Positions 3,516 to 27,509 of a stretch of 39,926 bases of DNA are shown here, in pieces. The first letter of the stretch is position 1. Every line of letters starts with the position of its first letter. Source of the stretch: a virus; the IMG/VR virus record IMGVR_UViG_3300024348_000109, positions 1 to 39,926 of that record. One strand, given 5' to 3'. The notes beneath the pieces are model-generated. The model saw only the letters and a list, made by a program, of their open reading frames with translations, ran no database searches and was not told where the DNA came from. The position numbers and the translations under genes were made by a program.

Positions 3516-4797
3516 CGGGCTGGCTCGTTTGAGCGAGCGAGAGCCTTCGATAAACGTAAATGTTTATGGCAACCACATCCAAAATCTAGTAAAGTCAATC
3601 GCTTATGCGATATTCCCTGTTACCTCGCTTATTGGCGATGTGTATAAAGACGTGTTCCCTCAAACAGCAGAAGGGGATGTGTTGGATGCAAACTTTGGTG
3701 CGATGGAAGGGCTTTTAAGAAAGCCAGCGAGCAAATCAACTGGGAAAATTGCTGTTTTTGACAGCATTGGCACAAACATCCCAGTTTTTACAAAATACAA
3801 CACTTCCGATGGAGTCGAGGTTGAAACAGTATTAGCAGGAACCGTGGCTATTCAAGTGACCACGATAGCTAGCGTTGTAAACAACGACGGGGTTGTCACT
3901 TTCACGGCTGGGCTTGTTCCCCACAATATCCCAAAAGGGTCTTTAAGTACCATATCGATAGGCAATCCGCTTGTGGATGGGGTTCGTGAGATAGTCGGTG
4001 TCTCGCAATCTACGTTTTCTATTGTTATTGATTCGATAACCCCAATCAGCGGGACTGGCACCGCAACCGCAAACTATGCTGTTATCCAATCTCAAACAGT
4101 AAGCGATGGTGCTGATTCACAGGTTGAGGGCTCTATCGAATTGCAAGGCGACAACGAAGCTTATGCCCTGTTTTCAGGGTTGAGCGGCGGCGCTGACAAA
4201 GAAAGCGACACTAGCTACAAAGCCAGAATTATAAAAACCAGGGGGGCTTTAGAAGGGGTTTTTACGCAACCTCAAATTATTTTGGCTGCGCTTTCTGTGC
4301 CAGGCAATACGCGCGCGTGGGTGGTATCTCCAAAGACCTTGGTTGCTGGTGGCACGCCTGGTGTGGCTGGGTATAAACCACAGCCAGGTGAGGTTTGTGT
4401 ATATTTTTTGAGAGACAACGACGTTTACCCGATCCCCGACGCTGGAGAGATCGCTACGACAAAGGATGCGATCATTCAAAAGGGACGAATGCCCGCGAAC
4501 ACACTAGATTCGGATATTTTTGTTTTTTCGCCAACCCTTGTCACAGCTTTAATTCAAATTGACAATTTGTCGCCAAACACCCCAGAAATGAGAGCCTCTA
4601 TTGAAGGCGAGGTGAGAGCTTATTTTGAGGACTTTGTTGATTTTGAAACATCCGTAAGTGCTGAGGATTTGATATCTGTAGTAAAATCAACTAGAGACCC
4701 AGCAAATAGAGCGGTGTCTACCTTTAATGTTGTCAGCACTGATCAAAACCCAGGCAGCGGTGGGCTGCTTGTTTATGGAGCGATTCAATGGCTTTAG
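3475..4797 (+). CDS. Mu gp47-like baseplate J protein
   Basis: A 440-residue baseplate J-like protein (Mu gp47, P2 gpJ, T4 gp6 family). Recognisable parts are the N-terminal ETAEGDVLDANFG-like region (DVFPQTAEGDVLDANFGA), the middle GGADKESDTSYKARI segment and the C-terminal half with EVRAYF. The ATG at 3475 lies inside the gp46-like gene and gives the family-typical beginning PLRTLSIKTLEDSGLARL. It forms the wedge ring together with gp46 and gp48. The stop overlaps the start of the next gene by ten bases. Confidence 0.85.
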   Translation: MPLRTLSIKTLEDSGLARLSEREPSINVNVYGNHIQNLVKSIAYAIFPVTSLIGDVYKDVFPQTAEGDVLDANFGAMEGLLRKPASKSTGKIAVFDSIGTNIPVFTKYNTSDGVEVETVLAGTVAIQVTTIASVVNNDGVVTFTAGLVPHNIPKGSLSTISIGNPLVDGVREIVGVSQSTFSIVIDSITPISGTGTATANYAVIQSQTVSDGADSQVEGSIELQGDNEAYALFSGLSGGADKESDTSYKARIIKTRGALEGVFTQPQIILAALSVPGNTRAWVVSPKTLVAGGTPGVAGYKPQPGEVCVYFLRDNDVYPIPDAGEIATTKDAIIQKGRMPANTLDSDIFVFSPTLVTALIQIDNLSPNTPEMRASIEGEVRAYFEDFVDFETSVSAEDLISVVKSTRDPANRAVSTFNVVSTDQNPGSGGLLVYGAIQWL

Positions 4798-6503: not shown

Positions 6504-7399
6504 AAATAAAATATTGTGGGCGATTAAATTCTTTTTATCGAGTTGGGTTAGATAGTGAAATTCCTTTTGACGTGGTAGACGTTTCTAAAGAAACATTTGA
6601 TTCGCTTTGCTTTGATGAAACAATAAATGGGAAAATTATTGTTGCAGATAAAAACAGCAATCCAATTGCTGCCCCGATAAATTTCAAGCAAGACAAAAGT
6701 GGAGACTGGGTTTATGACTCTGTGTTGGATCAGAGGCAGGTTGATAAAATTAAAATTTATGTTTTGAATGATTTAAAAGATCGTTATTTAAATTTAAAAA
6801 ACGGCGCTTTTCCTGTTGATTTTACACATATTGTCAAAAATCTAAACTTACCGAATCAAACTGATATTTTATTCCCAACCACGCAGCCAGTAGCGAATTT
6901 ATCAGTTTTGCCAAAAGTGAAAACTCAAAACGAAAATATTGTTGATTTTTCTACCAACAAAATAAAATATCCAACCCACGACAGATGTGTTTTATGGGTT
7001 CAGGACAGCTTAGATATACAAAGTGTATGCTCACAAGGTCATGTATTGGCGACTGATTGGGTTTTAAAAACCCCTAAATCAACAATATTTGACTATATTC
7101 ATTATCAACAGATAGGTATCTCTGGCATTCAATACAATTCAACTCAGATAAGAACAGCTCAGCCTGATGGATATCCGGTCGTTATTGATAAAATCTCACT
7201 CAAAATGCTCATGTTTATTTATTCAACAATAAACTCAAAAAAAGAGCAGCTGCATGGGCGATATCTTTTGTTAAAAACACAGATAAACAACTGTGCAACA
7301 ATGGCCGCACTTGAATCGCTTAAAGAGAATATGAAAACGGGGTGGGTTGAAGTTTTTAGTGATACTCAAACACCAGCTGGCTTGACAGTTGTTAAATAG
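6500..7399 (+). CDS. Putative tail fibre assembly protein
   Basis: A 299-residue protein overlapping the fibre gene by four bases. The C-terminal third (VIDKISLKMLMFIYSTINSK, then LKTQINNCATMAALESL) resembles the DUF4376-like helical end found on tail-fibre assembly proteins, and the N-terminal part (ADKNSNPIAAP…) is also typical of such chaperones. Family members are intramolecular or trans-acting chaperones for the fibre encoded just upstream. This is the last gene of the plus-strand structural operon. A near-consensus promoter for a downstream RNA lies over its final codons. Confidence 0.55.
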   Translation: MKIKYCGRLNSFYRVGLDSEIPFDVVDVSKETFDSLCFDETINGKIIVADKNSNPIAAPINFKQDKSGDWVYDSVLDQRQVDKIKIYVLNDLKDRYLNLKNGAFPVDFTHIVKNLNLPNQTDILFPTTQPVANLSVLPKVKTQNENIVDFSTNKIKYPTHDRCVLWVQDSLDIQSVCSQGHVLATDWVLKTPKSTIFDYIHYQQIGISGIQYNSTQIRTAQPDGYPVVIDKISLKMLMFIYSTINSKKEQLHGRYLLLKTQINNCATMAALESLKENMKTGWVEVFSDTQTPAGLTVVK

Positions 7400-7410
7400 C
7401 CTTGTATTAT
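7382..7410 (+). promoter_or_regulatory. Sigma70-type promoter for small RNA copy 1
   Basis: TTGACA at 7382-7387, a 17-base spacer, then TATTAT at 7405-7410. This is one of the closest matches to consensus in the window. It overlaps the end of the fibre-assembly gene. No plus-strand gene follows for 2.6 kb and a strong terminator lies 120 bases on, so its product should be a short RNA starting near 7417. Confidence 0.65.
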
Positions 7411-7416
7411 TATCTA

Positions 7417-7536
7417 CGTTACTATTTTGGTAAAAACCTTTGGGTTAATTGGAAACAGTTTCTAGAGATCCTGTTTGCTTCAATCGAAAAGATTGGAAAG
7501 CTCTGTGAAGGGTCGAAACTTCACAGGGCTTTTTTA
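7417..7536 (+). ncRNA. Candidate small RNA, copy 1
   Basis: The predicted transcript of about 120 bases runs from the promoter at 7382-7410 to the terminator. It holds a short 5' hairpin (AACC 7435-7438 with GGTT 7443-7446), then AAACAG (7453-7458) with CTGTTT (7471-7476), then CAATC (7481-7485) with GATTG (7491-7495) closed by a GC pair, then the 11-bp terminator stem. From about 7452 to 7510 it matches 10601-10659 with two differences, while the 5' part is unrelated. There is no open frame with a ribosome site. It could be a regulatory RNA with a variable 5' end and a conserved scaffold, or merely a complex terminator. Confidence 0.55.
7500..7536 (+). terminator. Rho-independent terminator after the tail operon
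   Basis: The 11-bp stem GCTCTGTGAAG (7500-7510) / CTTCACAGGGC (7519-7529) has an eight-base loop and is followed by six T. It separates the plus-strand structural operon from the convergent minus-strand recombination operon. The opposite strand has a shorter T run, so it may act in both directions. Confidence 0.85.
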
Positions 7537-7553
7537 TTGCTTAAAATCCAGGT

Positions 7554-7862
7554 TTAAACCCATAAAATATCATCAATTAGTGCCTGCTCTTGTCTGTTTG
7601 GATTGTTTTTTATTCTAGCATCATGTTGGTTGACCCAGCCTGCCAAAGAGAAATTTTTATCAATAAAATCGCATTCTTCAAAAAGATCGTCGTGATGAAT
7701 GCCGATTTTTTGCCACTTCATTTTTGAGTTTGTTGCAAAAATTATACCGTTATTTTTTTTTAAATAAACAGGGGCTTTGTCGATACACTCAAATCCGTAC
7801 ATGCACATTACAACCGCACCTTCGTTCATGCGAATCGTCGCGCTTTTAAAATCAAAAATCAT
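7554..7862 (-). CDS. Hypothetical protein (102 aa), last gene of the recombination operon
   Basis: The start has a GGAG ribosome site nine bases before ATG. The protein is 102 residues, mixed and soluble, with several Cys, Met and Lys and a KWQKIGIHHDDLFEECDFID segment. No family was recognised. Just after its stop, in the +1 frame, come codons for K-P-G-F and a stop, the same last four residues as the neighbouring lipoprotein. This suggests a frameshifted or duplicated 3' end. It is transcribed with recT and the exonuclease gene. Confidence 0.7.
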   Translation of the reverse strand: MIFDFKSATIRMNEGAVVMCMYGFECIDKAPVYLKKNNGIIFATNSKMKWQKIGIHHDDLFEECDFIDKNFSLAGWVNQHDARIKNNPNRQEQALIDDILWV

Positions 7863-7870
7863 TTCGTCTC

Positions 7871-8062
7871 CTAAAATCCAGGCTTAATCGGTGTTTCAAG
7901 GCACTCAAACGGTAGCGATGGGTCATTGACACACTGAGCAGCGCTTGCCTGACTGTTTGGCTTATGTTGATCTTGCTGCGGCTTTTCAACCATCAGCTGA
8001 TCATGCTCAGGCGATCCGCAAGCAGTTAAAAAAATAAAAATTAATATCAAAACATTTTTCAT
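7871..8062 (-). CDS. Small lipoprotein
   Basis: A 63-residue protein with a classic signal peptide (MKNVLILIFIFLTAC) ending in a lipobox LTAC, so Cys15 should be lipidated. The mature part of about 48 residues is polar, rich in Gln and Pro, has two more Cys, and ends in KPGF. The ribosome site is AGGA before the ATG. Small phage lipoproteins can be outer spanins (Rz1-like) or superinfection-exclusion proteins. No inner-spanin partner overlaps it and it sits among recombination genes, so neither role is supported specifically. Confidence 0.75.
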   Translation of the reverse strand: MKNVLILIFIFLTACGSPEHDQLMVEKPQQDQHKPNSQASAAQCVNDPSLPFECLETPIKPGF

Positions 8063-8103
8063 GGCTTATCCTATTTAAAAACAGAGCGACCAGCGCCCCG
8101 TGG

Positions 8104-8331
8104 TTAGATGTGTTTTTTATTTTTTAATTGTTGTTTTAAAAAGGCATTCAGTGTGTTTTCTGACCTCGACGCGATTAGCGATCCGTCAGAGAACCTTGTA
8201 AATCTCCTTTTGAACTCCACCGAAAGCTCTTTGATATTCATGAAAGTCATGTCGCTTTCTAAAAAGGCTTTCTGCTCTTTTGTCAAAAGCCCTGGGGAGC
8301 CAACTTTTCCAGCCCTTATAATTTTTACCAT
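8104..8331 (-). CDS. Hypothetical protein (75 aa)
   Basis: A 75-residue basic protein with an AGGAG ribosome site. The segment LTKEQKAFLESDMTFMNIKELSVEFKRRFTRFSDGSLIASRSENTLNAFLKQ looks helical and could be a small HTH-type fold: its pattern, from a Lys-Glu-rich helix to S-xx-S-R-S-x-N-T-L, resembles HNH-associated or homeodomain-like DNA-binding repeats. No family is certain. It lies between the exonuclease and the lipoprotein in the same operon. Confidence 0.65.
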   Translation of the reverse strand: MVKIIRAGKVGSPGLLTKEQKAFLESDMTFMNIKELSVEFKRRFTRFSDGSLIASRSENTLNAFLKQQLKNKKHI

Positions 8332-8357
8332 TTTTTTACTCCTGCTGTTAAAAAAAA

Positions 8358-8987
8358 CTAAAACTGATACCCTTTTTTAGCCAAAAGCTCCATAAAATAC
8401 ATCTGGGATTTTTGGCATCTTTTGATCATTTGATCCTCTTTTTTGGCATCTCTTTTTAGAGAAACCCAGCTTAACCGAATCTCTGGTTTAATGCTGCTCA
8501 CCACGTGCTTATTGACATCATCCCGCGGTTTTAAGAGTTCGACTGGGGTGTCTACCAATGCGTACGCCAAAACAGATTCGTTCACATCCCACAAGTGCAT
8601 GTAGGCGCGCAGTTGCCACTCATATTTTTTTCCACCACCATCGTTTAAAAACAGTGGGAAAGTTTCCTTTGACCAAGATGTTTTTAAATCGATCACCATG
8701 CTTTTTTCTTTATCAAAAATATCGCACTCGCCTGTTATTAGATCGGTGGTGATTCGCTCTTTGTTCTTTTTGTAATCAGTGCCAAAAACCTGATTGAACA
8801 AATCGATTGAATCTTGCTCACATAAAATGCCTTTTTGAACGCTTTGAAAATCCAATTCATCATCATCCCAACCAAGTACGATTTGACTAGCGAGTTTTGT
8901 TATCTCGGTTAGCGCCCCCTCCGGCAAAACATCCTTTTCTGGATATCCCATAATTTTTGACAATGACGAAGCCCTAAACTGTTTCAT
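8358..8987 (-). CDS. YqaJ-type phage exonuclease (PD-(D/E)XK)
   Basis: A 209-residue nuclease. Motifs visible are the N-terminal RASSLSKIM, G53-x3-E57 (KGILCEQDSIDLF), G-E-C-D89 and D100-L-K102, the metal-binding and catalytic set of lambda-exonuclease and YqaJ-like recombinases. Such enzymes degrade one strand of double-stranded ends and load the partner annealase. The recT gene lies directly upstream and overlaps this start by 14 bases, the classic annealase-exonuclease pair. The ribosome site is GAGGTG. The length is close to the family norm. Confidence 0.85.
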   Translation of the reverse strand: MKQFRASSLSKIMGYPEKDVLPEGALTEITKLASQIVLGWDDDELDFQSVQKGILCEQDSIDLFNQVFGTDYKKNKERITTDLITGECDIFDKEKSMVIDLKTSWSKETFPLFLNDGGGKKYEWQLRAYMHLWDVNESVLAYALVDTPVELLKPRDDVNKHVVSSIKPEIRLSWVSLKRDAKKEDQMIKRCQKSQMYFMELLAKKGYQF

Positions 8988-9972
8988 TTTTCACCTCACC
9001 ACCAAACAGCCCGTCATTCGTTTCCACTCGAAACGAAAACAGCTCTTTTTTCTGCGCTTCAGTAAAGAGCTTGCCTGCTTTTTCTTCTTTTTCGATCAGC
9101 TCTTGTGGAGCTAAGCCAAACTCAATCTGATTTTTCCATTCCTGTTTTTTCGCCTCAAACTCGCCGAATGTCAATGTTTTTGGCGGTTGTTTTTTATCAG
9201 AATAAGGACTATCGCCCTCGTCCTCGACATTGTCTAAAACAACAACAGAGCCTTCAATAGTTTCTGTTTTTTTGCCTAGCTCACCGGCATTATCTATTGT
9301 GAAAGCATTTTGCATTTCAATCGACATCGGCAAATATTTCCACCCGCGACGAAGGATTGTCTTCCTAATCATTTCGCTCTCATTAGAAATCCAAGGCGTA
9401 TCAGAAATGCCATTTGATTTTGCATAAGAGAAAGATTTTGACGTGTCTCTAATTTTATAAATATCTTCGATTGTCATCCACTCAAAATGACTTCCACCAT
9501 CTTTAAATTGCGCCACCATGTAGGCAAGTGTTTTTTTCCCACGATCCCCTTTCAAGAATGGTTTGTGACAAACACTTGGAACCAAGCCTAACGACAAATC
9601 AAATTCATCTTTTTCATAAACAATTTCCGCACTTATACTTGATATTTGCCCAGAGCGCCTAGCCAGTGCGAGCAAACCTCGATACCCAACGATCAATGTG
9701 ATCTCGTTGCCGTACGGCACTAGATATGAGTGCCCAAGATGCCCGCCAATCTCAAGACCGAGCTGACTTGATTGAATTACTGATCGAATCAAGCTGTTTT
9801 GATTTTTGCTAGCAACATCCCTTAATTTTTTGTTGCAAGACAACTCATTGACAACCACTCTCGCCATTTTTTCTGGAGTTATCCCGTTTGAAATGACACT
9901 GCTTATCTGTTTTAATGAACCCCACAAGGCGTTTTGTATGACACTTATTTGCGAGATAGCTAAATCACTCAT
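8974..9972 (-). CDS. recT: RecT single-strand annealing protein
   Basis: A RecT-family recombinase of 332 residues from the chosen start. Diagnostic segments are LGHSYLVPYG, LIVGYRGLLALARRSGQI, a VAQFKDGG stretch and TPWISNESEMIRKTILRRGWKYLP. It pairs complementary single strands during phage recombination and replication restart, with the downstream exonuclease. The ATG at 9972 is preferred because GGGAG lies six bases upstream and the product then begins MSDLA. An upstream ATG at 10011 would add 13 residues but lies inside the promoter region. The C-terminal 80 residues are charged. Confidence 0.9.
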   Translation of the reverse strand: MSDLAISQISVIQNALWGSLKQISSVISNGITPEKMARVVVNELSCNKKLRDVASKNQNSLIRSVIQSSQLGLEIGGHLGHSYLVPYGNEITLIVGYRGLLALARRSGQISSISAEIVYEKDEFDLSLGLVPSVCHKPFLKGDRGKKTLAYMVAQFKDGGSHFEWMTIEDIYKIRDTSKSFSYAKSNGISDTPWISNESEMIRKTILRRGWKYLPMSIEMQNAFTIDNAGELGKKTETIEGSVVVLDNVEDEGDSPYSDKKQPPKTLTFGEFEAKKQEWKNQIEFGLAPQELIEKEEKAGKLFTEAQKKELFSFRVETNDGLFGGEVKNETV

Positions 9973-9999
9973 TTTTTCTCCCATTGAATTAAAAATATA

Positions 10000-10028
10000 A
10001 TTGTAAATCATTTTAAATTAATTGTAAA
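10000..10028 (-). promoter_or_regulatory. Promoter of the recT operon
   Basis: Read on the minus strand: TTTACA (10028-10023), a 17-base spacer, then TACAAT (10005-10000). Both boxes fall in the same position of adjacent tandem repeat units, so a protein bound to the repeats would cover the promoter. It lies 28 bases ahead of the preferred recT start. Confidence 0.6.
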
Positions 10029-10060
10029 CCATTTAAATTAATTGCAATTTAATTTAATTT
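10000..10060. repeat. Tandem 20/21-bp operator-like repeats
   Basis: Two near-identical units (10000-10020 and 10021-10040) begin ATTGTAAA and end TTTAAATTA. A degenerate third unit (10041-10060) begins ATTGCAATTTAA. The period of two helical turns and the overlap with two divergent promoters suggest binding sites for a regulator on one DNA face. They could also be replication iterons, but no initiator gene is adjacent. Confidence 0.65.
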
Positions 10061-10070
10061 AGGTTATTAT
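10042..10070 (+). promoter_or_regulatory. Promoter of the 10098 gene
   Basis: TTGCAA at 10042-10047, a 17-base spacer, and TATTAT at 10065-10070. The -35 box lies in the third, degenerate repeat unit. The predicted start near 10077 leaves a 20-base leader with GGGGG before the ATG at 10098. It fires divergently from the recT promoter. Confidence 0.6.
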
Positions 10071-10097
10071 TGTTCTTTTTAACAAACGGGGGTTTTC

Positions 10098-10538
10098 ATG
10101 AGGGACCAAAGCGTTAAGCTTTTAATTGACAAATTAAGAATTGTTGCGTGTAGGGTTTTTAAAATATCCGGGCACCCTGGATATTTTAAAATTGAGGGCG
10201 GGGCAATAAAAACAAGACTTATAAGCGACTCGGGTTGCACTTTATGGCATGAGAGCGGCAACTATTTTAAAGATTTTTTTAATAATGAACTCGAGATTTG
10301 TGATGACATTGATTATGAAACAGGTCAGCCAAAGCCAAAGCCTGTTGATTTTGCTACTGCTCTGCGAGATATGATTGATAACCCTCAGGCGTTATACAAA
10401 TGTTGTGAAAGGATTTTCTATTACAGATATGTTGATCTTTATGAGTTCAATAAATCGCAAAGCCCTGAATCTTGTGGTCGCATAGCGACTGATTCTATTG
10501 GATACTATTTGAATAAAAACTGGTTCAAAATCAAATAA
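10098..10538 (+). CDS. Hypothetical protein (146 aa), divergent from recT
   Basis: A 146-residue soluble protein with no recognised family. It starts with a basic helix (SVKLLIDKLRIVACRVF) and has a central GAIKTRLISDSGCTLWHESGNYFKDFF part, a Pro-Lys-Pro linker (QPKPKPVDFA) and a C-terminal Tyr-rich helix. Its own promoter and GGGGG ribosome site support expression. It lies alone between the divergent promoters and small RNA copy 2, and codons 20-32 encode a strong hairpin. A regulator of the recombination operon is possible from position only. Confidence 0.75.
   Translation: MRDQSVKLLIDKLRIVACRVFKISGHPGYFKIEGGAIKTRLISDSGCTLWHESGNYFKDFFNNELEICDDIDYETGQPKPKPVDFATALRDMIDNPQALYKCCERIFYYRYVDLYEFNKSQSPESCGRIATDSIGYYLNKNWFKIK
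10154..10194 (+). other. Long perfect hairpin inside the 10098 gene
   Basis: TTTTAAAATATCC (10157-10169) pairs with GGATATTTTAAAA (10179-10191). The stem continues inward with a G-T and two G-C pairs, leaving a CAC loop. This makes a 16-bp stem some 60 bases into the coding sequence. A palindrome this long is unlikely to be set by protein constraint alone. It could be an RNase III site, a translation brake or a protein-binding site. Confidence 0.75.
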
Positions 10539-10542
10539 CCAT

Positions 10543-10571
10543 TTCACGGCGTTGGAAAAATTGTGTAGAAT
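10543..10571 (+). promoter_or_regulatory. Probable promoter for small RNA copy 2
   Basis: TTCACG (10543-10548), a 17-base spacer, and TAGAAT (10566-10571). The -35 box is weaker than that of copy 1. Its position relative to the conserved scaffold is comparable, and the predicted start is near 10578, just after the stop of the upstream gene. Confidence 0.45.
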
Positions 10572-10577
10572 AGAACA

Positions 10578-10686
10578 ATAAGCGATAAAAATCGTTTATG
10601 AAAACAGTTTCTTCAGATCCTGTTTGCTTCAATCGAAAAGATTGGAAAGCTCTGTGAAGTTCGTACCTCCACAGGGCTTTTTTTTT
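10578..10686 (+). ncRNA. Candidate small RNA copy 2 / leader of the DHFR operon
   Basis: The predicted RNA of about 109 bases has a 5' hairpin (AAGCGAT 10580-10586 with ATCGTTT 10591-10597, AAAA loop), unrelated to the 5' hairpin of copy 1. The shared scaffold follows: AAACAG (10602-10607) with CTGTTT (10620-10625), then the CAATC/GATTG hairpin, then the terminator. Only 14 bases separate the T run from the DHFR ATG, so DHFR and the early operon should depend on readthrough unless another promoter is used. It may therefore act as an attenuating leader as well as a free RNA. Confidence 0.5.
10649..10686 (+). terminator. Rho-independent terminator upstream of DHFR
   Basis: The stem GCTCTGTG (10649-10656) / CACAGGGC (10670-10677) is followed by nine T. 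The stem bases and tail match the terminator at 7500-7536, but the apical part differs and the stem is shorter. It lies between the 10098 gene and the DHFR gene. Confidence 0.8.
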
Positions 10687-10700
10687 AAATTGGAAAAAAC

Positions 10701-11225
10701 ATGAAAATTAAATTAATTGCTGCATTATCGAACAACAGAGTGATTGGTATTAATAACCAATTACCCTGGCATGTTCCTGAGGATTTTGCGCACTTTAAAA
10801 AACTCACAGAGCACCAACATATTTTGATGGGTCGCAATACCTGGGAGTCTATTTTTAACTTGCGTCAAAAGCCGCTGCCCAATCGCCATCACGTTGTGAT
10901 AAGCCGTTCGGCTCTGTTGTTGCCACAAGGCGTTGATTTAGCGAACTCAATCGAAGCCGCGATCTCCTTGTGTCGCCAATCCAATATCGACAACAACGAA
11001 AGTAAAGATATTTGCATTATTGGTGGGGCGCAAATTTACGAACAAAGCCTGGCTTTTGTTGATGTGCTGGAGCTGACATACGTGCACGTCGAGCTCGAAG
11101 GTGATGCGTTTTTCCCAGAGTTGCCGCACGGCATGTTTAAAGAGGTAGATCGGCGCTCGATTGTCAGCGCTAAAGAGCCTTTTTATGAAGCCAGTTTTGT
11201 AAGTTATCGAAAAAATACGTTATAA
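10701..11225 (+). CDS. folA: Dihydrofolate reductase
   Basis: A full-length DHFR of 174 residues. It shows the N-terminal strand IAALSNNRVIG, the substrate loop LPWHVPEDFAHFK with Asp28 at the catalytic position of bacterial DHFR, the NADPH-binding MGRNTWESI and HHVVISR segments, GGAQIYEQSL, and ELTYVHVELEGDAFFPEL. It reduces dihydrofolate with NADPH and supports dTMP synthesis during replication. No thymidylate synthase is recognisable in the window, so the host enzyme would be the partner. It is the first gene after the copy 2 terminator, with a weak ribosome site (GGA). Confidence 0.95.
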   Translation: MKIKLIAALSNNRVIGINNQLPWHVPEDFAHFKKLTEHQHILMGRNTWESIFNLRQKPLPNRHHVVISRSALLLPQGVDLANSIEAAISLCRQSNIDNNESKDICIIGGAQIYEQSLAFVDVLELTYVHVELEGDAFFPELPHGMFKEVDRRSIVSAKEPFYEASFVSYRKNTL

Positions 11226-12768: not shown

Positions 12769-12790
12769 ATTTCTAATGATATAACAAAAT

Positions 12791-12815
12791 ATTATAGGTT
12801 TTAAAATCCTATAAT
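12791..12815. promoter_or_regulatory. Palindromic operator upstream of the promoter
   Basis: ATTATAGG (12791-12798) and CCTATAAT (12808-12815) are perfect 8-bp arms around a TTTTAAAA-containing centre. It lies about 20 bases upstream of the -35 box. No T run follows, so it is not a terminator. The same site occurs at 14638-14662. Confidence 0.6.
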
Positions 12816-12836
12816 TAAATGAGATGACAAACGCTA

Positions 12837-12864
12837 TTGATATTATATTTATAATATGTATAAT
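12837..12864 (+). promoter_or_regulatory. Promoter of the small-gene/ssb operon, with operator in its spacer
   Basis: TTGATA (12837-12842), a 16-base spacer and a perfect TATAAT (12859-12864). The perfect palindrome ATATTATA-TT-TATAATAT (12840-12857) fills the spacer, so a bound dimer would block RNA polymerase. AAGGAA precedes the ATG at 12896. Confidence 0.75.
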
Positions 12865-12895
12865 ACTCATATTGATTAATTAAAAAGGAACGAAA

Positions 12896-13075
12896 ATGGA
12901 TAACATTACAGCAGCAAGAGCAAAATATTCAGCAGCGATGCTAGCGATTCGATCAGAGCATGATTTGGCTTGGGAAGCAGCAAAAAAAGCCATTGACGAA
13001 AAGAGAGATGAACAACTAGCGGCTGCCAACGCTGAGTTTGAAGCTGAGATCAGGGAAGCTGGTTTTGGTGGGTAA
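12896..13075 (+). CDS. Small Ala/Glu-rich helical protein (59 aa)
   Basis: A 59-residue protein started by the ATG at the end of the duplicated cassette, with AAGGAA upstream. The sequence is almost all helix-forming (AARAKYSAAMLAIRSEHDLAWEAA, then EKRDEQLAAANAEFEAEIREA) and should form a single amphipathic coiled coil ending in a short Gly tail. No family was recognised. A strong promoter and ribosome site imply high expression. It is the first gene of a run of small proteins leading to ssb. Confidence 0.75.
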   Translation: MDNITAARAKYSAAMLAIRSEHDLAWEAAKKAIDEKRDEQLAAANAEFEAEIREAGFGG

Positions 13076-14292: not shown

Positions 14293-14626
14293 CGTGTTTG
14301 CGCTGGGTCGTTTGAAAACCGGCGAGCGAAACAAAACAGAAGCAGCTTACGAATCTCACTTAAAATTACTCATGCTGGCAGGCGAGATTGCTTGGTTTAA
14401 ATTTGAGGGCTTAAAATTTAGACTGGCAGACAACACATTTTACACCCCAGATTTCATAGTAATGATGACCAGCGGGCAAATCGAGGTTCACGAAGTCAAA
14501 GGCTTTTGGCAGGATGATGCCAAAGTCAAAATCAAAGTAGCGGCTGCTCTTTTCCCATTCAAATTTTTGGCGGTTAAAGCAAAAACTAAAAAAGAGGGTG
14601 GCGGGTGGTGCCTAGAGGAGTTTTGA
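14279..14626 (+). CDS. DUF1064-like PD-(D/E)XK endonuclease
   Basis: A 115-residue protein from a GTG start. A likely active site is Glu21 (NKTEAAYE), P57-D58 (YTPDFIV) and E72-V-K74 (VHEVKGF), the PD-(D/E)XK arrangement of DUF1064 and related small phage resolvase-like nucleases. Downstream WQDDAKVKIKVAAALFP matches the family helix after the catalytic Lys. It may trim replication or recombination intermediates, with ssb upstream. The stop lies inside the second copy of the duplicated cassette. Confidence 0.75.
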   Translation: MRKSNVFALGRLKTGERNKTEAAYESHLKLLMLAGEIAWFKFEGLKFRLADNTFYTPDFIVMMTSGQIEVHEVKGFWQDDAKVKIKVAAALFPFKFLAVKAKTKKEGGGWCLEEF

Positions 14627-14745
14627 TATAACAAAATATTATAGGTTTTAAAATCCTATAATTAAATGAGATGACAAACGCTATTGATATTATATTTATA
14701 ATATGTATAATACTCATATTGATTAATTAAAAAGGAACGAAAATG
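14624..14745 (+). repeat. 122-bp perfect direct repeat, copy 2
   Basis: Identical to 12777-12898 and in the same orientation, 1847 bp apart. Its first bases overlap the stop region of the nuclease gene. Recombination between copies would excise the ssb-containing segment and leave one cassette fused to the 14743 gene. It carries the same two palindromes, promoter and ribosome site as copy 1. Confidence 0.95.
14684..14711 (+). promoter_or_regulatory. Promoter of the 14743 operon, with operator in its spacer
   Basis: Same boxes as copy 1: TTGATA, a 16-base spacer filled by the perfect 18-base palindrome, then TATAAT. It lies about 31 bases upstream of the ATG at 14743, and a second palindromic operator is present at 14638-14662. 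The two operons should be co-regulated. Confidence 0.75.
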
Positions 14746-18257: not shown

Positions 18258-18312
18258 AAATTGCGGGCACGCAAAAACTGTAAAGATTAAAACAACGGCT
18301 TTTTGGGGTTAA
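18244..18312 (+). CDS. Very small CxxC protein (22 aa)
   Basis: A 22-residue frame (CKNCGHAKTVKIKTTAFWG) with a strong AAGGAG site seven bases before its ATG, starting inside the end of the three-repeat gene. Its CKNCGH resembles the zinc modules just upstream, so it could be a remnant or a fourth, separated half-module. The ribosome site is the main evidence that it is translated. Confidence 0.45.
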   Translation: MKNCKNCGHAKTVKIKTTAFWG

Positions 18313-18315
18313 AAC

Positions 18316-19443
18316 ATGAGTAATCACGTTTTTGAATATGCGTGGGATTTGAAAGGTGGGTACCCATTAAAAAATATTGATAGGCATAAAATTAAGGTCT
18401 TTGGGATGTTTGTCTGTGGTGGCGGCTCGACAATGGGTTACAAACTAGCAGGGTTTGATCATTTGGGGGGGTGTGAGATTGATAAAAAAATATCAGAGGT
18501 TTATAAAAAAAATCACAACCCGAAATTTTTTTTTAATGAGGACATTAAGGTTTTCTTAAACAGAGAAGACTACCCAGAAGAATTAAACAATTTGGATATT
18601 TTAGATGGGTCACCGCCATGCTCTAGCTTTTCAGTGGCTGGGGATAGAGAAAAATACTGGGGTAAGGAAAAAAAATTCAGGGAGGGGCAGGCTTTTCAAG
18701 TTTTAGATGATTTGTTTTTTACTTTTATAAAACTGGCAAAAAAGCTACGCCCGAAAGTTGTTATAGCAGAAAATGTAAAAGGTTTAATTTTTGGAAAAGC
18801 TATTGAATATGCAAAAAAAATATATAAAGAGTTTAACGAGGCTGGGTATGATGTACAGGTTTTTTTGCTTGACGCTAGTAAAATGGGGGTTCCGCAAAAA
18901 CGTGAGCGTTTGTTTTTTATATGTCGAAGAAAGGATTTAAATTTTCTAGCTATTAATCTTTCTTTTAATGAAAGAGAGATTGTTTATGGTGAAATTGAAG
19001 ATGATTGTTATGAAAATAAAATTAGTAAATGTTATTTTGAGTATTTTTTAAAATGCGCCCCTGGAGAATCTTTAAGAAACCACCACCCAAAAGGACATTT
19101 TTTTAATTGTTATAAAACAAACAAAAACAAAGTTTTAAAAACAATCACGGCAGCCAGCGGGTCAATTGCCTTCCATTATGAAAAACATAAAGGCCTTTCA
19201 AATAACGAGTTAAAGCTTGCTGGCTCATTCCCTGCCGACTATGATTTTTTAAAACTTGATCCAAAATATTTAATTGGGATGTCCGTCCCGCCGGTCATGA
19301 TGGCGCAGATTGCCAACCAGGTTTTTTTGCAAATGTTTAAAAAAGAAGCTGTTTTTTTTAAACATAACGAGAACGATTTGACAAGTTATATTGATTTTTT
19401 GGTAAGACAGAAAGATTTATTTTTAGGGGAAAGACATGAGTAA
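18316..19443 (+). CDS. DNA (cytosine-5) methyltransferase
   Basis: A 375-residue C5 methyltransferase. Motif I is FVCGGGST-M-GYKLAG (about 32-46), motif II ends in EID, motif IV is PPCSSFS with catalytic Cys101, motif VI is ENV (152-154), and motif VIII is GVPQKRERLFFI (191-202). Motifs IX-X lie at the end (GMSVPPVMMAQIANQVF). It should methylate cytosine in phage DNA, probably as protection from host restriction; no cognate endonuclease is visible. The target sequence cannot be read. It overlaps the next gene by eight bases. Confidence 0.9.
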   Translation: MSNHVFEYAWDLKGGYPLKNIDRHKIKVFGMFVCGGGSTMGYKLAGFDHLGGCEIDKKISEVYKKNHNPKFFFNEDIKVFLNREDYPEELNNLDILDGSPPCSSFSVAGDREKYWGKEKKFREGQAFQVLDDLFFTFIKLAKKLRPKVVIAENVKGLIFGKAIEYAKKIYKEFNEAGYDVQVFLLDASKMGVPQKRERLFFICRRKDLNFLAINLSFNEREIVYGEIEDDCYENKISKCYFEYFLKCAPGESLRNHHPKGHFFNCYKTNKNKVLKTITAASGSIAFHYEKHKGLSNNELKLAGSFPADYDFLKLDPKYLIGMSVPPVMMAQIANQVFLQMFKKEAVFFKHNENDLTSYIDFLVRQKDLFLGERHE

Positions 19444-19630
19444 TCACGATTCAGAATCTTTTAGGAATGGCGCGACTTGTGCGATTGCCATTTTTCAAGG
19501 CATGAGAAACAACGAAGTTTTTAAAACAGATCCAAAGCTGGCTATTCGCGCTCTGTTTGAAGTCGTGGACGAATTTGATATTTTTGAACTGGAGCGAATT
19601 TATTTAAGCGAGATTTTAAAAAATGGATAA
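19436..19630 (+). CDS. Hypothetical protein (64 aa)
   Basis: A 64-residue, mainly helical acidic protein (NGATCAIAIFQGMRNNEVFKT, then IRALFEVVDEFDIFELERIYLSEIL). It begins MSNH, the same first four residues as the methyltransferase upstream, which hints at a copied start region. It overlaps both the methyltransferase and the remnant gene downstream, so it sits in a coupled stretch. No family was recognised. Confidence 0.65.
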   Translation: MSNHDSESFRNGATCAIAIFQGMRNNEVFKTDPKLAIRALFEVVDEFDIFELERIYLSEILKNG

Positions 19631-24167: not shown

Positions 24168-27100
24168 ATGAGTAAATCTGAGTTTGGCGCCGCGGCTGGG
24201 TTGGCGTTTTCTAGGCAAGCGGCAAATAAATTAGTGGCATCGCAATCCGCAATGCTTGCCTTGACAGGTATTTTTCCAGGGCAAGTTGTTATAAGAGAGG
24301 ACGATAATTATTACAATTATCTTTTAAAATCTCTGCCTGCCAGCAACCTATCTAATTGGCAGCCGATGGGCAAAGAAGCTTCAAAAGTTGCAGATGTAAT
24401 AACCGATGGTGTTACTACAATTGCCCCCTCTCAAAATGCGGTATTTGACGCTTTGGCATTAAAAGCGACTTCTCTTTCTTTTAGACAAGAGTCAACAAGG
24501 TTTGTAGAGTCAACGTACGGCTCCGATGCAAATAATGGATTAACCCTAGATAAGCCATTTGCGACTGTTCCTATGGCTTGGAATGGTGTAAATCCTAGCG
24601 GACAAGTAAAAATTCTTGGCGGGTCTACTTATAATGTAGGAACATTTACTTTTGATGCTTCAAAATCTTCAATTAAAACAATTTTAGACAATGGAGTTAA
24701 AATAACAGGGACTATTAATTTAGTTGTCGGCAATAGCTCAATGCAATTTTTTGATGGTAAAATTGCTGCGACTGTTAACGATGCTTCGGGCGGCACTTGT
24801 TATTTTAATAATATTGATGTTGCTGGTTCAACCCTTAATTTTAGCAATGGTGGTTATAAGTTTATTGGTAACTCTACCTCTACGCCCAATGTTATTAATT
24901 TGACAGGAACGGGTGGCACTCTTCTATTACAAAATATTACAGGCGGTATTGTTTCTCTTAATGTCGGTGCAGGTTGGACCGTTGTTCATTATAACTGCAC
25001 AGTCGCTATTTTATCAAATGCCGGAACTATAATTGATGGATTACATATTCCAATTTCTGGTTTAATTGCAAACCAAACGGCTTTAAATGTTATTCTCGCT
25101 CAAACTAGCTCGGTTTATTTTGGTTATTATATTGTCAATTTTGACAATCCTGTTATTACAGGAATGACAATAGCTAAGGGCGATGTATTCTATAAAGTAA
25201 GTGCGACTGGAAATACTAAAATTTATACTTTTGGTAACGCTCCTGCAAGTTTCAGCTTGATTGTTTCGGCAACACAAAGAAGCACAATTATAAAAGACAT
25301 AGATAAGTGGATAAACTCAAAAACTGAAACTGATGCAAGCCTTGTTCTAAAGCAAAATATCACGGATAATACACTAAATACAACTTCGAAAACAGTCCCT
25401 GGTGCTATTAACGAGCTAAAAGCCAGCATTGGTGGCGCGATCCCAAGCGACATAAAAACAACAAGCGGAACTATTGGCTCGTCGGCAAATACAATTATTA
25501 ATTCCGAAAACTCAACAACACAAACCTTAACAACCCAAAATATTGGAACAAAGAGATATTTTAAAAACATTGGGGCTGGGCTTGCAAAAATAACAGCAAG
25601 TGGTGTGATTACAGATGATAGCTTAGTGCCTTTGTCAACATTCCCACTTATGCAAGGCGAGGAGTTGGAACTTGAAAGTCAAGGTTCTGGAAACTGGATT
25701 ACTTTGAAAGCTCCCAAAAGAACACGCGTTCTTAAAATGTTAAACTCAAACGGTATTTATGTCGGTCCGACTGTATATACACATAGAGGCGATATTGGAC
25801 ATCAGCCATCTTACAGATTTGCTTCAAAAAACGATGGGACGACACAGACAGGAAGTCAGGTTGCAAGAAGACTATTCCCAACAAACCCAACATCAGGCTT
25901 TGCAGATGCAAAAGCAAAATGGAAGCCGGAAAGCATTATTTCTGGCGATAGTGGTTTTTTGTTGCACACAAACAATATCTTGTATGGATTTGGGGAAAAT
26001 GAAGGTGGGCAGTTCAACCAAGGGAATCAAATAGATGCATCAAGTTTGGTTACCATTGCCCAAGATGTTGTGTGGTTCCGTTGTACAGCGTCGGCAGGTT
26101 CAAATGGTTATGAACAAAACTGTTTAATATACAAAACGACAGACGGACATATTCGTTATTCTGGACCCGATAGACAAGGTCAGGCAGGTTTAGGAACAAC
26201 TGCAACAGTAAGAACAACTTCGGTTGTTTTAACGGCAGGACACCCAGACTCGGCAATTGCATTTACAAAGGCTGCTACCGTACCTGCGTTTTATGATTTT
26301 CAGTCTAATATTCTCACAATTACAGCAGCAGGGAATAGTGGATTAAACAGTAACGCAGGTATTCTTGTAGGTCAAAAGGTATCTGGCACAAACATTCCGG
26401 CGAACACAACAGTTGTTAGTTTGATTGGCACAAACCAAATTCAAATTAGTAACGCACCAACGGGAGGCGCACCTGCTACAAACGTTACTTTGTCGTTTTA
26501 TGGATGGTTAAATGTTGGCGACCTTGAAGACTGTTGGATTTCAAGCTCTTACGATAGCTTTCACATTTTATGGCAGTTTAATAATGGTAGAAAATTTTTC
26601 ACAGGAGCAAACCAAGGTGCCTTTGGTAATGGTGCAACAACCACTTCGGCAATTCCAATTGAAGTAACACAATTTTGGGGTAGGATTGGTGCAGAACCAA
26701 TAAATGATGGATTAAATTGGCGAATAAAGCAAGTTATACATGCCAGTGGCTACTCTGACGGAACGACTGCGGCAATTCATAACTGGTGCGGAATGTTGCT
26801 TGAAAACATTATAACGGGGGAGCAAAGGCATCAAAGAAGTGGGCAAAATACTTGGGGAATGATTGGTAACAACACAACTACACAAGTCCTAAGTCCGTTT
26901 TTAGTCGCTTCAACTATTTTAACTGACGCCCCTGCAATTCCAGTGCAAGGTAGAATTAGGCAAATTGCAACACAGGGGGCGGCGATAGCTTCGGTTTTTG
27001 TTGTCTTTGAAAACGGGACTGTCTGGGAAAACGGAAGAAACGATGTTAATCAACTTGGTGACGGAACGGTAACGCAAAGAAATACACCGTTTCAGTTAAG

Positions 27101-27509
27101 AGAGCTTGACGGCGTTACTTTCGTTACCGACGCAAGAGAAGTTTTGTCAAACAACTTTAACGCTTCCCAGCATCAATGGGACAGCCCTGCATTTATTAAA
27201 AGGGTAAGCGGTAAAACCAGCGCCCAGGGTTACAATCTATATGCAAACGCTGGTATTGGTGGCTTGGCTAATATTGTAAGACCTGCATTTTTACCTTACG
27301 ATGAGCACCGCTACGGTGCAATTATGCAAATTGCACAGTGTGGTCTAGAACGAACCAGAAAAATATATTTTGCTGTAACAGAATCAGGTAAGGTATTAAT
27401 TTGGGGTAGAAACTATGAAGACCAAGTATTTGAACAGCTGGGAAGAGGCTTTTACGACCAATACATTGGCAGACCGATTGAATTTACATCTTTTGATAAT
27501 TTGGGGTAG
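24168..27509 (+). CDS. Large virion appendage protein with beta-helix and RCC1-like repeats
   Basis: A 1113-residue protein. Residues 1-110 are a fibre-type N-terminus (DGVTTIAPSQNAVFDALALKA). From about 110-300 comes a beta-helix-like region starting SDANNGLTLDKPFATVP. Residues 390-420 (KTVPGAINELKASIGG) recall fibre spacers. From about 590 to the end there are RCC1-like blades: ILYGFGENEGGQFNQG, GHIRYSGPDRQGQAGLG, TVWENGRNDVNQLGDG, VLIWGRNYEDQVFEQLG. It is probably a head- or tail-attached adsorption fibre; its place inside the head operon favours a head fibre. No catalytic residues were identified. Confidence 0.7.
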   Translation: MSKSEFGAAAGLAFSRQAANKLVASQSAMLALTGIFPGQVVIREDDNYYNYLLKSLPASNLSNWQPMGKEASKVADVITDGVTTIAPSQNAVFDALALKATSLSFRQESTRFVESTYGSDANNGLTLDKPFATVPMAWNGVNPSGQVKILGGSTYNVGTFTFDASKSSIKTILDNGVKITGTINLVVGNSSMQFFDGKIAATVNDASGGTCYFNNIDVAGSTLNFSNGGYKFIGNSTSTPNVINLTGTGGTLLLQNITGGIVSLNVGAGWTVVHYNCTVAILSNAGTIIDGLHIPISGLIANQTALNVILAQTSSVYFGYYIVNFDNPVITGMTIAKGDVFYKVSATGNTKIYTFGNAPASFSLIVSATQRSTIIKDIDKWINSKTETDASLVLKQNITDNTLNTTSKTVPGAINELKASIGGAIPSDIKTTSGTIGSSANTIINSENSTTQTLTTQNIGTKRYFKNIGAGLAKITASGVITDDSLVPLSTFPLMQGEELELESQGSGNWITLKAPKRTRVLKMLNSNGIYVGPTVYTHRGDIGHQPSYRFASKNDGTTQTGSQVARRLFPTNPTSGFADAKAKWKPESIISGDSGFLLHTNNILYGFGENEGGQFNQGNQIDASSLVTIAQDVVWFRCTASAGSNGYEQNCLIYKTTDGHIRYSGPDRQGQAGLGTTATVRTTSVVLTAGHPDSAIAFTKAATVPAFYDFQSNILTITAAGNSGLNSNAGILVGQKVSGTNIPANTTVVSLIGTNQIQISNAPTGGAPATNVTLSFYGWLNVGDLEDCWISSSYDSFHILWQFNNGRKFFTGANQGAFGNGATTTSAIPIEVTQFWGRIGAEPINDGLNWRIKQVIHASGYSDGTTAAIHNWCGMLLENIITGEQRHQRSGQNTWGMIGNNTTTQVLSPFLVASTILTDAPAIPVQGRIRQIATQGAAIASVFVVFENGTVWENGRNDVNQLGDGTVTQRNTPFQLRELDGVTFVTDAREVLSNNFNASQHQWDSPAFIKRVSGKTSAQGYNLYANAGIGGLANIVRPAFLPYDEHRYGAIMQIAQCGLERTRKIYFAVTESGKVLIWGRNYEDQVFEQLGRGFYDQYIGRPIEFTSFDNLG

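Follow-up and report, generated by a model that had tools for sequence, protein, structure and literature searches.

Why should a phage carry two near-copies of a short, hairpin-rich segment, one behind its last late gene and one immediately in front of its DHFR gene, and do these copies act as free RNAs or on the transcripts in which they lie? A preliminary description of this DNA had proposed the former, namely two trans-acting small RNAs that share a 3' scaffold and differ in their 5' guide parts. The window analysed here is the whole of IMG/VR record IMGVR_UViG_3300024348_000109, a phage genome of 39,926 b. Its tape-measure reading frame is open at the right end (39926) and resumes at base 1 without a break, with 567 codons to the stop, and the record is therefore a complete, circularly permuted genome; an end repeat is absent from the record ends.

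The gene content is that of a contractile-tailed phage (terminase, major head protein, tail sheath), and RecT, an exonuclease, DHFR, SSB, an endolysin, a dUTPase and a methyltransferase are also encoded. Rightward genes run from ORF10098 (10098) via the record junction to 7399, the sole leftward cluster lies at 7554-10011 and contains the recT and exonuclease genes, and 97% of the genome is coding, leaving an intergenic total of 1,218 nt. In the structural gene region, positions 24168-27509 encode a 1113-aa protein with a partial match to phrog_4219 (regulator of chromosome condensation).

The two segments, which we refer to as copy 1 and copy 2, occupy the two largest intergenic gaps (154 and 162 nt). 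The last late gene has its stop 54 nt 5' of copy 1, and beyond this copy comes the convergent recT cluster. Copy 2 lies between ORF10098 and DHFR, 63 nt 3' of the ORF10098 stop, and about 15 nt separate its T run from the start codon of DHFR.

The duplicated hairpin and terminator tract

The following features, all on the plus strand, make up the two copies.

7450-7538, plus strand: copy 1 of the homologous tract, 89 nt
7453-7476, plus strand: hairpin 1 of copy 1, AAACAG/CTGTTT with loop TAGA (predicted fold)
7481-7495, plus strand: hairpin 2 of copy 1, CAATC/GATTG with loop GAAAA (predicted fold)
7496-7538, plus strand: intrinsic terminator of copy 1, -21.7 kcal/mol, between the convergent gene runs
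10599-10686, plus strand: copy 2 of the homologous tract, 88 nt
10602-10625, plus strand: hairpin 1 of copy 2, loop TTCA (predicted fold)
10630-10644, plus strand: hairpin 2 of copy 2 (predicted fold)
about 10645-10686, plus strand: intrinsic terminator of copy 2, -17.1 kcal/mol, directly 5' of DHFR

The copies share an identical core of 40 nt, where none is expected by chance, and they are covered by two families in the repeat analysis of the genome, D3 (61 nt at 95%) and D7. Covariance models of the tract (R1 and R2), run with filters off, found no third copy in the genome. A 58-base core occurring twice with two differences had been reported previously; its occurrence in two plus-strand copies holds, but the tract is longer than that core and the 60-nt hairpin part alone contains three differences. 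The two hairpins and the terminator that had been described are present in both copies in the predicted fold, hairpin 1 pairing AAACAG with CUGUUU and including an inner UC/GA step, and hairpin 2 pairing CAAUC with GAUUG around the loop GAAAA.

Compared with shuffled sequences the whole units reach z-scores of -5.9 and -3.6, which are owed mainly to the terminator, as without it hairpins 1 and 2 surpass the stability of their shuffles by only a modest margin (z -2.3 and -2.0, values that are not independent since the hairpin sequences of the two copies are near-identical). Lengthening hairpin 2 by GCUU/AAGC sets it in competition with the lowest terminator pairs only, and kissing between the hairpin-1 loop and a terminator arm is at chance level, being matched by 36% of random loops. 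Two other readings of the hairpin sequences were rejected. As an operator, AAACAG/CTGTTT at such a spacing was found only in the two copies and at one coding place. A 19-codon frame present in both copies (MKTVSSDPVCFNRKDWKAL; in copy 2 it begins at UUG and has two changes) ends in the terminator stem, and was dismissed as a leader peptide because no Shine-Dalgarno sequence was seen, the copy 2 start falls within a hairpin and none of the three changes is synonymous.

Differences between the copies are unevenly spread. Of the 60 positions of the two-hairpin part 3 have changed, none of them paired, against 4 of the 11 in the terminator apex, so that the hairpin part is the better kept (Fisher p = 0.009); the tract begins 2-3 nt 5' of hairpin 1 and ends within the T run, and beyond it the flanks fall to the random level (18% and 33% identity, against 26 +/- 6% for random pairs). 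Taken alone, the unpaired position of all three changes is weak evidence, with an estimated probability of roughly 8% by chance. Because the hairpin part is kept, the apex has varied, the flanks are unlike and the tract limits match the RNA structure, an old duplication followed by selection on the RNA module appears to fit better than recent copying, although two sequences are no proof of it. The repeat is supported as a real, well-delimited, duplicated and structured RNA module, in line with its earlier reading as a conserved element.

Other parts of the genome are duplicated as well. A 122-bp intergenic segment occurs at 12777-12898 and 14624-14745 with 100% identity. Each copy has a TTGATA-N16-TATAAT promoter (11/12), and a small orphan gene comes immediately after its ribosome-binding site, which is likewise the same in both; this segment is a duplicated promoter-leader cassette, and the phage does duplicate regulatory cassettes. 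An imperfect repeat (82%) at 18300-18337 and 19420-19457 comprises a ribosome-binding site and gene start (MSNHVFE / MSNHDSE) and precedes the DNA methyltransferase gene and the next small gene, respectively.

The limits of the tract also bear on whether the repeat acts at the level of DNA, either delimiting the 3.1-kb recT island with ORF10098 as a boundary sequence or serving recombination between its direct copies, by which that island could be gained and lost. The island is flanked by direct repeats of 61 nt at 95%, genes for RecT and an exonuclease are present, and joining 7449 to 10599 would place the late-gene end directly before DHFR. We nonetheless consider this very unlikely, as the ends of the conserved tract coincide exactly with the RNA structure and not with gene borders, and the 36-40% G+C of the island lies within the 34-44% of the other phage gene blocks.

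Promoters, 5' parts and the route to DHFR

The sequences upstream and downstream of the modules contain the following features.

7382-7410, plus strand: promoter-like site of copy 1, TTGACA-N17-TATTAT, 11/12, overlapping the end of the last late gene
7417-7452, plus strand: 5' part of the predicted copy 1 transcript (putative start), no significant hairpin, z -0.7
10098-10538, plus strand: ORF10098, an orphan and the first rightward gene, with its end 63 nt 5' of the copy 2 hairpin 1
10543-10571, plus strand: weak promoter-like site of copy 2, 9/12
10578-10599, plus strand: hairpin of 9 bp, present before copy 2 only, z -6.9
10701-11225, plus strand: DHFR gene (PF00186), probably reached by read-through of copy 2, with no promoter between

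The near-perfect promoter claimed for copy 1 was confirmed at 11/12, a score expected about once per 40 kb on both strands together and held by 0.8% of comparable 51-nt stretches. Since this TTGACA-17-TATTAT site is good, an RNA of about 120 nt, running from it to the terminator near 7537, is plausible. A promoter of its own had likewise been attributed to copy 2, yet the site there is at chance level, its 9/12 being reached by 14% of random 51-nt stretches. Similarly, of the small hairpins ascribed to both 5' parts, that of copy 2 is significant, and copy 1 shows none above chance. The copy 2 hairpin is an inverted repeat at 10578-10599, ATAAGCGAT-AAAA-ATCGTTTAT, with 9 pairs including one G-T, for which an operator or an RNA hairpin is possible. 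The structure prediction for the preceding ORF10098 product was uninformative (mean pLDDT 41).

A target search for the 5' parts, which the preliminary description had called for, gave nothing convincing beyond shuffles on the phage side. Their pairing with phage translation starts was no better than that of shuffled queries, 87% and 38% of which did equally well, and the best full-length pairing (copy 2 against the gene at 4788, reached by 3% of shuffles) was one of five queries and ran via the terminator stem. With phage-encoded small RNAs the module shares a short predicted transcript, from the promoter at 7382-7410 to the terminator near 7537, and a pair of trans-acting RNAs would also account for the predicted terminators with their T runs and for the unlike 5' parts. 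It differs from such RNAs in that the copy 2 promoter is only at chance level, copy 2 abuts the DHFR start and overlaps the sole DHFR leader, no phage target was found, and the 5' part of copy 1 is unstructured; the proposed pair of trans-acting RNAs is accordingly left unsupported, and we judge it unlikely.

Copies 1 and 2 are the only strong intergenic plus-strand intrinsic terminators of the genome, the next candidate (-8.2 kcal/mol) being the hairpin 1 of copy 1 itself; the preliminary description had missed this, as it had the place of copy 2 in the DHFR leader. Both lie 54-63 nt after a stop codon, the usual place of a terminator, and the phage has a perfect 122-bp duplicate of another regulatory segment, all of which would suit two ordinary intrinsic terminators of common origin, spread by module shuffling or duplication, with passive hairpins that at most shield RNA 3' ends. 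Ordinary duplicated terminators are a serious rival of a cis-acting switch, and we regard them as possible though on balance unlikely. They sit poorly with the better preservation of the hairpin part than of the terminator apex (p = 0.009), with an 11/12 promoter before copy 1 that has no gene to serve, and with the location of copy 2 about 15 nt before DHFR, a gene without another promoter.

The sequence that separates the copy 2 terminator from DHFR offers at best a promoter-like match of 7/12, and 79% of random placements score at least as high. The copy 2 terminator (hairpin and U run, 10643-10688) stands 5' of the first gene of an operon, DHFR at 10701, without a separate promoter between, an arrangement expected of an operon-leader terminator. 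Of a further mark of such leaders, an exclusive antiterminator fold or regulated read-through, no more than the short GCUU/AAGC competition was seen. As no promoter intervenes, DHFR transcription most likely passes the terminator, and DHFR expression would most likely need its read-through; genes beyond DHFR may have their own promoters, such as those of the 122-bp repeats (12777 and 14624). A terminator or leader acting in cis is favoured over trans-acting RNAs because DHFR would have to be reached through the copy 2 terminator.

A proposed cis-acting terminator/leader module and its likeness to known phage RNAs

We tentatively favour a cis-acting composite terminator/leader module with some control function, a reading drawn from the sequence that we hold to be somewhat short of probable. 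In such a module, two small hairpins would be fused to an intrinsic terminator, in a unit whose duplication is old and which selection has maintained. Copy 1 would close the genome-long plus-strand gene run before the convergent recT cluster, and copy 2 would stop transcription after ORF10098, with DHFR and the co-transcribed replication genes being served by polymerase that passes the terminator. The hairpins would set or switch terminator efficiency (conditional read-through), via RNA polymerase or via a phage or host factor. The conservation of the hairpins suggests that they influence termination, and conditional read-through is favoured but unproven. Against a switch, copy 1 needs none, full termination being expected there; intrinsic terminators leak, and plain leakage through copy 2 could serve DHFR. 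We regard as quite unlikely the more specific proposition of a new phage RNA element, about 45 nt long and acting on its own terminator, through which one factor, or RNA polymerase alone, would control both the end of the gene run and the entry to DHFR and the replication genes.

Copy 2 follows the first rightward gene and precedes the replication genes, a position like that of nutR-tR1 or putR, which in lambdoid phages separate cro from the replication genes. Lambda nutR-tR1 and pR'-6S RNA-tR' likewise combine a structured leader and a terminator after the first gene or promoter, with downstream genes that need read-through. Unlike the lambda terminators and leaders, the module is also found at a second site, the end of a long gene run. 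No relative of N or Q was identified in the phage, nor any known trans-acting factor.

The put RNA of HK022 is about 70 nt long, consists of two long bulged stems that abut, and is a protein-independent antiterminator that binds RNA polymerase at its beta' zinc-binding domain (PMC9378689). Antitermination of this kind had been offered as an alternative in the preliminary description, and it agrees with where copy 2 lies but is harder to square with copy 1, whose read-through would go antisense into the recT cluster. Like putL and putR in HK022, the copies form a related pair of two-hairpin RNAs within a single phage genome, with copy 2 at a putR-like place (PMC9378689). The module departs from put geometry, having hairpins of 24 and 15 nt joined by a 4-nt linker, each copy runs directly into a terminator, both copies lie on the same strand, and no sequence likeness was detected; model R2 gave only a chance-level match (E 0.245) in the whole HK022 genome (NC_002166), in which putL was not located for direct alignment. 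True membership of the HK022 put family, with protein-independent antitermination on the beta' zinc-binding domain, is highly improbable.

RNA anti-CRISPRs (Racr) are solitary repeat units (PMC10651486), and they resemble the module as short hairpin repeats 3' of a promoter in a phage; the module differs by its fusion to a terminator. A pattern search of 84,980 species genomes (GTDB), of a kind that would miss divergent CRISPR repeats, gave no occurrence of the hairpin-2/linker core, so that no CRISPR array with the core of the element was found.

Relatives were sought in collections that may lack near-identical records. Megablast returned no close DNA relatives of the phage, blastn of the element against phages and plasmids gave no meaningful match, and the element pattern had none among IMG/VR virus contigs. 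A looser viral pattern gave 5 matches, about the estimated chance number, which were rejected as none folds into the two-hairpin structure. Homologues of RecT, TerL and the head protein are found in distant phages only, the best TerL (45%) being on a 7.8-kb fragment; in 72 loci of such distant homologues model R2 made chance-level matches only (E 4 or worse), and in 49 TerL-derived virus records it made none. No Rfam family exceeded its gathering cut-off for the element, and the matches to His_leader were weak (26.9 and 24 bits, where the cut-off is 49) and rested mostly on the terminator.

If one element switches both sites, read-through of copy 1 would yield an antisense transcript over the recT cluster. 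If the hairpins do not control read-through, the case shows how a terminator pair that looks like small RNAs can be explained more simply by its positions in the genome. If they do, this phage, which is without a close relative in the collections searched, would possess a very compact terminator-linked switch that governs both ends of its transcription map.
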